Source: Sulfobacillus benefaciens (lineage in GTDB: Bacteria > Bacillota > Sulfobacillia > Sulfobacillales > Sulfobacillaceae). From it: 64,000 nt of DNA. The DNA lies in NCBI GenBank assembly GCA_003023725.1, contig PXYT01000006.1, forward strand, positions 1-64,000. The letters run 5' to 3'. The notes beneath the pieces are model-generated. The model was not told the DNA's origin and ran no database searches. It worked only from the letters and a program-made list of their open reading frames with translations. Positions 50,008-51,085 of this stretch are shown in pieces (the stretch's first letter is position 1; every line of letters begins with the position of its first letter). Made by a program: the position numbers and the translations under genes.

Positions 50008-50454
50008 ATGTTGCCCCTGGTGAGCATCCAGGCCTGGGTTTTAACCGGAATGGCACTAGGCTTTTTTTCGACGTTATATGGCGCTATGCGGTCTGAATGG
50101 CACATATGGCGGATTTGTGCACATATTTTGGACTGGTTGTGGTTTGTGTTTGCTGCGATCTTTATTCTTGGGGTTTATTTCTGGACAGGCTGGGGTGCCT
50201 TTCGCATGTGGAGCATGCCAATCATGGCCTTGGGATACGGCCTGTGGGTCTGGATGGCAGCACCATTGGCCTTTCGCGCCGTGTCGAAATTGTTGTCTAT
50301 GGAAGCCCGTGTAGTGTTTTATATCACATACCCGCTTCGTGGATTCACTCTAGGTATCCGAGGCATCTATAACAAATTCCGGGATGGTATAACCAGAAGA
50401 CTCCACACGACCAAAAAACCCCCGTCTCCTCCTCCAAATTCTCCCCAAATGTAG
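50008..50454 (+). CDS. yabQ: Spore cortex biosynthesis protein YabQ
   Basis: A 148-residue membrane protein with four hydrophobic segments (about 8-28, 40-60, 65-90, 95-115) and a basic, proline-rich cytoplasmic tail. The MALGFFSTLYGAMR and LDWLWFVFAAIFILGVYFW segments match the YabQ family, required for cortex formation. ATG 50008 follows AGGAGGGAGGGG. It lies between yabP and the HTH/divIC genes. Confidence 0.87.
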   Translation: MLPLVSIQAWVLTGMALGFFSTLYGAMRSEWHIWRICAHILDWLWFVFAAIFILGVYFWTGWGAFRMWSMPIMALGYGLWVWMAAPLAFRAVSKLLSMEARVVFYITYPLRGFTLGIRGIYNKFRDGITRRLHTTKKPPSPPPNSPQM

Positions 50455-50483
50455 TGACGAACACTTGGAGAGTCCTTTATAAT
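50454..50483 (+). promoter_or_regulatory. Promoter ahead of the HTH-divIC pair
   Basis: A perfect TATAAT (50478-50483) has GTGACG (50454-50459) 18 bp upstream, overlapping the yabQ stop. Transcription would start near 50490, just before the DnaA-box-like cluster. Confidence 0.5.
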
Positions 50484-50514
50484 GAAAAGGTCATGTAGTC
50501 ATTTTGTCATAATT

Positions 50515-50546
50515 TTGTACACAGGTTGTACACAGTCTGTGGATAA
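50515..50546. promoter_or_regulatory. Cluster of three DnaA-box-like 9-mers
   Basis: TTGTACACA occurs at 50515-50523 and again at 50526-50534 (11-bp period), and TGTGGATAA at 50538-50546 is the exact complement of the consensus DnaA box TTATCCACA. The first two differ from consensus only at position 3. All three lie in the leader of the HTH gene, between its probable transcription start and ribosome binding site. Confidence 0.55.
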
Positions 50547-50558
50547 CCGGGAGAAACC

Positions 50559-50792
50559 ATGCAAATTGAAATTCGGGGTCTGGAGAAACTCTCGTTCCGG
50601 GAACGGCAAGTGGTGGCGTTAAAGGAAACTGGCGTTTCCAGTGACGCAGTGGCTAAACGATTGGGGCTCTCTCCGGCTACCGTTGCGACTCTTTACAGTC
50701 GGGCCAAAACGAAAGGTTATCAGGTTGTACTGGTGATAAGCGGGGATCCATTGGGGGTCATGGCTGAAGAGGAGGAAGGGGAGGACATTTAG
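50559..50792 (+). CDS. Small sigma-70 region 4/LuxR-type HTH protein
   Basis: A 77-residue protein. Residues 8-50 (LSFRERQVVALKETGVSSDAVAKRLGLSPATVATLYSRAK, given here in parts: RERQVVALKE, AKRLGLSPATV) form a helix-turn-helix like sigma factor region 4 or the LuxR/GerE domain; the rest is a short beta-like stretch and an acidic tail. Such short lone HTH proteins may be regulators that act with RNA polymerase. ATG 50559 follows GGGAGA. Its stop overlaps the divIC start by one base, so the two are coupled. B. subtilis has no such gene at this place. Confidence 0.75.
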   Translation: MQIEIRGLEKLSFRERQVVALKETGVSSDAVAKRLGLSPATVATLYSRAKTKGYQVVLVISGDPLGVMAEEEEGEDI

Positions 50793-51085
50793 TGGCGGTT
50801 GAGAAAAAAGTGGCCTTGGAGAAAAAGAAGAGATTTCGCTGGCGTTGGAAGTGGAAGCGGCTTATTACTCTCTTTGCGCTGGCCTACCTAGGATTTTGGA
50901 GCATCCAGTCTGGGCTGCATATTTGGGTTTTGAGTCATGATGAGGCGAGCTTGACTCACAATATCCAAGTGGTGCAATCACAAGATACGCGGCTAAATCA
51001 GGATATTAGAGAACTCCGGAATCCGGCCATGGTCAAAAAAATGATTACGGGGCAAATACCCGTTCCTAATGCCAACGTACCGTAA
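50792..51085 (+). CDS. divIC: Septum formation initiator DivIC (FtsB-like)
   Basis: A 97-residue bitopic protein: a very basic cytoplasmic N-terminus, one transmembrane helix (about 28-46), then a short outside coiled-coil (about 50-80, NIQVVQSQDTRLNQDIRELR) and a tail. This is the FtsB/DivIC layout; the protein works with FtsL and DivIB in the divisome. The match is by architecture and gene position rather than strong sequence identity. GTG 50792 overlaps the previous TAG and has GGAGG seven bases upstream. Confidence 0.78.
   Translation: MAVEKKVALEKKKRFRWRWKWKRLITLFALAYLGFWSIQSGLHIWVLSHDEASLTHNIQVVQSQDTRLNQDIRELRNPAMVKKMITGQIPVPNANVP

Follow-up and report, generated by a model that had tools for sequence, protein, structure and literature searches.

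The leader of a two-gene unit of Sulfobacillus benefaciens, in which a small helix-turn-helix (HTH) gene is coupled to divIC, contains a five-unit array of DnaA-box-like sites in 11-bp phase. Comparison of the array among related genomes makes it probable that it is the DnaA operator of the HTH–divIC operon, and this is the best-supported reading of the element. DnaA is the protein that starts chromosome copying, and its control of promoters is already known. The deep conservation of the array points to direct control of the HTH and divIC genes by chromosome copying, and a DnaA operator before a division gene in most of about 40 families would be a direct, testable candidate link to chromosome copying. 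We found no description in the open-access library searched of such an element for DnaA with divIC or for Sulfobacillus, and the sequence-only reading of this DNA had likewise known of no DnaA control of divIC at the locus. Nor was an oriC-style anchored array of this conservation before HTH–divIC found described there.

The array and its genomic setting

The window, the whole stretch of DNA that was analysed, is 64,000 nucleotides long. A promoter-like sequence on its plus strand, GTGACG-18 nt-TATAAT (50454–50483), adjoins the 3' side of the yabQ stop codon and is followed on the same strand by the HTH gene (50559–50792; 77 residues, sigma-70 region 4/GerE-like by Pfam) and the divIC-like gene (50792–51085), whose start codon overlaps the HTH stop codon. 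The likely promoter before the sites and the coupling of a small HTH gene to divIC, both claimed from the sequence alone, are borne out by these positions. Upstream of the promoter lie yabP (Pfam E 2e-19) and then the yabQ-like gene, and 3' of the divIC-like gene are an S1-domain gene, a tRNA and a penicillin-binding protein gene. DivIC is the top-ranking Pfam match of the window ORF at a sub-threshold E of 0.005, and the gene in the same position in other families matches DivIC at E 4e-13 to 2e-17. We call the window ORF divIC because of this match, the clear matches of its relatives and the gene order, with yabP–yabQ before it and the S1-domain gene and tRNA after it.

The five units of the array are separated, in 5' to 3' order, by gaps of 2, 2, 2 and 3 bp, which is the 2–3 bp spacing of boxes that cooperative DnaA binding requires (PMC11317965). 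Units 1 (ATGTAGTCA, 50493–50501) and 2 (TTGTCATAA, 50504–50512), both on the plus strand, are degenerate; unit 1 has its TGT in the 11-bp phase and is conserved in phase with a degenerate sequence, and unit 2 is a candidate low-affinity site. Units 3 (50515–50523) and 4 (50526–50534), also on the plus strand and 2 bp apart, are both the DnaA-box-like TTGTACACA, and most leaders have TTGT[A/C]CACA at unit 3. Unit 5 (50538–50546), 3 bp after unit 4, reads TGTGGATAA on the plus strand, which is the perfect DnaA box TTATCCACA on the minus strand, and is the putative inverted anchor of the array. The sequence-only reading had described two 11-bp-phased copies and an inverted perfect DnaA box within 32 bp, with one mismatch in each tandem site. 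These three sites lie exactly as placed and span exactly 32 bp, and each TTGTACACA differs from TTATNCACA at one position (from TTATCCACA at two); the cluster is, however, a larger phased array, of which the two upstream units (50493 and 50504) had been missed.

The array begins directly 3' of the TATAAT promoter and covers approximately +3 to +57 of the predicted transcript. Its sites are therefore in the predicted 5' UTR, where the inverted pair can fold into a hairpin, and they might be read as part of a structured or protein-bound RNA leader. We consider this barely credible, as the stability of the leader is not above that of shuffled sequences (z +0.86); an Rfam scan of the window gave no family match besides tRNA.

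A genome-wide count of the sites, proposed earlier as a check, places their clustering above chance but not the number of single boxes in the window. Single TTRTNCACA boxes are not enriched there (5 versus 3.4 in shuffles), whereas five close tandem TTRTNCACA pairs occur in the whole 4.56-Mb genome versus none for a reversed control pattern. The 11-bp tandem TTGTRCACA-NN-TTGTRCACA, with one mismatch allowed, was found in 28 of the 34 family genomes, never more than once in each, and gave no control matches; it sits at the HTH gene start wherever the HTH gene was located.

Conservation of the array and drift of its units

The HTH gene was found in 29 of the 34 family genomes; the five without a match are mostly incomplete, and one of them, G025, has the array at a contig end. 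All 29 leaders, from 11 genera, have TATAAT followed by 11-bp-phased units with TGTGGATAA last, and their alignment reveals that the array is kept although the spacer and flanks diverge. Absence of the sites from close relatives had been named at the outset as what would speak against DnaA; every one of the 29 HTH-bearing family genomes keeps them, and the array is present in most of about 40 families. Unit 4 has turned round in two genera, to TTATTCACA or TTATGCACA in inverted orientation; in L058 and L062 it has changed from TTGTACACA to TGTGAATAA and TGTGCATAA, inverted and still in exact DnaA consensus.

An HTH orthologue is present in 131 of the 151 class genomes. Adding the leaders of another 60 genomes to those of the family brought the coverage to 41 families. 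Leaders from named genomes (Sulfobacillus, Desulforudis, Pelotomaculum, Carboxydocella, Fermentithermobacillus and Candidatus Formimonas, among others) were also included, and the resulting set has 116 distinct leaders, drawn from the 41 class families and from related Bacillota. Of these, 94 have three or more TGT in exact 11-bp phase, versus 0.11 expected from dinucleotide shuffles, and 85 have at least two TTRTNCACA boxes, versus 0.07 expected; the leaders are kin, and these counts are not of independent events. The arrays comprise 3–7 phased sites, and the TGT–TGT distances have sharp peaks at 11, 22, 33, 44 and 55, with nothing comparable at other distances. The boxes outlive the surrounding sequence across the 116 leaders. 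At the HTH–divIC promoter they are both beyond chance and conserved, as is expected of a DnaA-regulated promoter. Two leaders (L134 and L241) have the HTH gene, and the array was not found in them.

The sequences of the units point to DnaA. Exact DnaA consensus, in either orientation, is seen in 190 of 381 phased units (0.3% of random units with TGT), and 69 further units are one base off. TGTGGATAA predominates at the last unit and TTGT[A/C]CACA at the two preceding it, and the units farther upstream are degenerate and TTGTANTAAT-like. Many of the changes stay in consensus: position 5 varies among A, C and G, both TTGT and TTAT are seen, and units flip orientation in place. In L100, L113, L153 and L256 a TTGT to TTAT exchange has lost the TGT and kept the box. 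Box drift thus appears to run mostly along lines that the DnaA consensus permits.

These observations bear on a rival explanation, in which the small HTH protein regulates its own gene by binding the array as head-to-tail 11-bp TGT repeats and the likeness of the array to DnaA boxes is secondary. The protein is indeed a DNA-binding HTH, the array is essentially unique to the locus, minisatellites aside, and the TGT phase persists where boxes are lost. We nevertheless consider autoregulation unlikely, given the exact consensus in those 190 units and the TTGT/TTAT exchanges and flips, which are tolerable to DnaA and should not all be tolerated by a TGT-reading factor. Furthermore, the usual binding sites of GerE-type domains are inverted and 20 bp long. 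A comparison with 100 boxes counted around dnaA/oriC in 37 class genomes also argues against autoregulation and for DnaA, as the commonest close pair there, forward–reverse at 12 bp (10 cases), is likewise the commonest in the leaders (45 cases).

The same comparison revealed two differences. Same-strand pairs are 11 bp apart in the leaders and mostly 12 bp apart near dnaA, and forward leader units are nearly always TTGT, whereas the dnaA/oriC boxes are mostly TTAT (71 of 100) and include TTGTACACA only once. The preference of the leaders for TTGT points to an extra constraint, a top-strand TGT, beyond plain DnaA binding. The 11-bp TGT phase is kept without a consensus box in L120, L133, L137, L217 and L236, and with only two units in L147; all six of these box-less arrays precede the same HTH gene, and such arrays are seen in Pelotomaculum and family f34. 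Low-affinity DnaA sites are often at least two bases off consensus (PMC4451416), and such deviation may account for the box-less arrays. The main alternative for them is a second TGT-reading protein, perhaps the HTH protein itself, and an additional reader of the 11-bp repeat, in line with the other factor that the sequence-only reading had offered as an alternative, is conceivable given the lineages in which the TGT phase has outlasted the consensus boxes.

A different candidate reader is an OmpR-type response regulator, WalR- or PhoP-like, controlling the operon alone or with DnaA. Such regulators bind 11-bp-spaced direct repeats, the WalR half-site being TGTWAH and its operator TGTWAH-N5-TGTWAH. 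The 11-bp TGT direct repeat with degenerate members is of this kind, upstream units such as TTGTAATAA resemble the half-site, and the box-less arrays retain the phase. However, WalR requires A at the fifth base of its half-site, where the conserved TGT[A/C]CACA and TGTGGATAA have C or G; no more than 4% of units −1 to −3 have A at this base. Nor is such an array found at other promoters of these genomes, unlike what a regulon would present. The full TGTWAH-N5-TGTWAH operator is not matched by the array, only the upstream degenerate units fitting it in part, and we regard control by such a regulator as very unlikely.

Association with the HTH gene and the promoter

The HTH protein matches the Pfam families Sigma70_r4_2 (E 1.6e-8) and GerE (E 1.8e-6), and its AlphaFold model (mean pLDDT 87) has three helices between two short β strands. 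A search of the PDB with this model returned only generic GerE/sigma-4 HTH matches over 40–50 residues, none with E < 0.001. The protein is 58–95% identical across about 41 families, with 22 residues invariant in 20 diverse members, and the naming of its family stops at generic HTH domains. The locus hence draws attention to a conserved small HTH protein.

Ten HTH-less class genomes from five families have divIC with no box or array upstream, some of the contigs being short; one further match (G072) is doubtful. We take the absence of the array from divIC where the HTH gene is missing to mean that the array belongs to the HTH gene. The earlier suggestion that the sites tie divIC to DnaA holds only in part, as the array tracks the HTH gene and not divIC, which would be controlled, if at all, as the second gene of the operon. 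The occurrence of the array with the HTH gene, and its absence from the divIC leaders of HTH-less genomes, agrees with HTH autoregulation, but the joint loss is equally expected if DnaA controls the HTH gene.

The promoter before the array differs among lineages. TATAAT is present in all 27 distinct Sulfobacillaceae leaders, none of which has a sigma-H-like match, whereas a sigma-H-like promoter (AGGAA-GNNGAA) precedes the array in 40 of the 89 non-Sulfobacillaceae leaders, versus 0.5 expected. In L112, L250 and L217, for example, a sigma-H-like AGGAATT-GNNGAAT stands before the array where the Sulfobacillaceae have TATAAT. The promoter type differs between groups, and the array has stayed, directly downstream of the promoter. 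This position bears on the suggestion, also made in the sequence-only reading, that the cluster is a DnaA titration site, here one that lies in the HTH–divIC leader by chance. The DnaA-box clusters of B. subtilis and datA of E. coli are comparators for such sites, and the array has several boxes and is origin-proximal in 11 genomes. Pure titration nevertheless seems highly improbable: the array is fixed directly 3' of the HTH promoter even across promoter types, and genomes that have divIC but no HTH gene lack it, a tie that a titration site would not need.

A link to sporulation was considered and set aside. Spo0A is found in 141 of the 151 class genomes, including most of those without the HTH gene, and it is missing in family f9, which nonetheless keeps the HTH gene and the boxes.

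Relation to known DnaA systems and a putative mechanism

The array is not itself an origin. It does not lie at dnaA–dnaN; dnaA is on contig C102 and the array on C112, and in 11 relatives with complete or near-complete contigs the HTH–divIC unit is 57–234 kb from dnaA. Its layout does, however, resemble that of the right half of E. coli oriC (R4, C1, I3, C2 and C3), which has the same 3-2-2-2 bp gaps, an 11-bp period and one strong box; there a 3-bp gap separates the strong R4 from C1, and the low-affinity sites, 2 bp apart, are filled cooperatively from this anchor (PMC4451416). The E. coli element is part of an origin, whereas the present array is operator-like, 57–234 kb from dnaA, and has its anchor on the strand opposite the array. 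E. coli DnaA also favours box pairs 2–3 bp apart in vivo, and double boxes of this spacing occur near target genes such as polA and purH (PMC11317965); those sites have two boxes and other target genes, and the arrays here have three to seven phased units.

Two other comparable systems are from Bacillota. DnaA was located by ChIP at the B. subtilis ftsL promoter (Goranov et al. 2005, as cited in PMC8203912), which likewise serves a gene for the divisome's FtsL/DivIC membrane component. Here the gene is divIC with an HTH gene in front, the locus is another, and a phased array of 3–7 sites is present in most of about 40 families. The B. subtilis sda promoter is DnaA-controlled and likewise serves a small regulatory protein, Sda, which inhibits the sporulation phosphorelay (PMC8203912), whereas the present unit encodes an HTH protein and DivIC.

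If the array is a DnaA operator, DnaA would bind the perfect inverted box at 50538–50546 as an anchor and would then fill the array cooperatively towards the promoter, first at 50526 and 50515 and then at the degenerate 50504 and 50493. Since the array is directly downstream of the promoter, we favour repression by occlusion or roadblock, in the manner of other DnaA-repressed promoters. The filled array would block RNA polymerase, so that HTH and divIC would be repressed at high ATP-DnaA, and repression would be released after initiation as DnaA turns over to ADP-DnaA. The weaker sites would make the operator respond to ATP-DnaA, which it probably senses. A broader proposal is that of an ancient replication-to-division switch, an oriC-style anchored, ATP-DnaA-sensing operator over HTH and divIC across much of Bacillota, at which a second TGT reader, perhaps the HTH protein, competes with DnaA and accounts for the strict top-strand TGT phase; this is possible, but less likely than not. 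The arrays of 3–7 sites would form a natural series in which the cooperativity of DnaA on double-stranded DNA outside oriC can be studied.

A DnaA regulon using the same array elsewhere was not recovered, as the five-unit TGT pattern led mainly to HTH–divIC leaders and minisatellites, with two unclear sites and one oriC as the remaining matches. In G084, a genome in which the HTH gene was not found, the origin region itself has a five-unit 11-bp TGT array, in the dnaA–dnaN gap (L278, about 1500–1550). Two loci of the S. benefaciens genome itself (C94:959–989 and C123:58147–58177; L002 and L004) have the same DnaA-box pair, TTGTCCACAGACTTATCCACA and ATATCCACA, in both cases directly behind a copy of one secreted-protein gene. 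Finally, in L281 (G148:C14, 1495–1547) a PHP-type phosphoesterase gene and a NUDIX-like gene flank an intergenic stretch with three DnaA boxes, of which two are in 11-bp phase.
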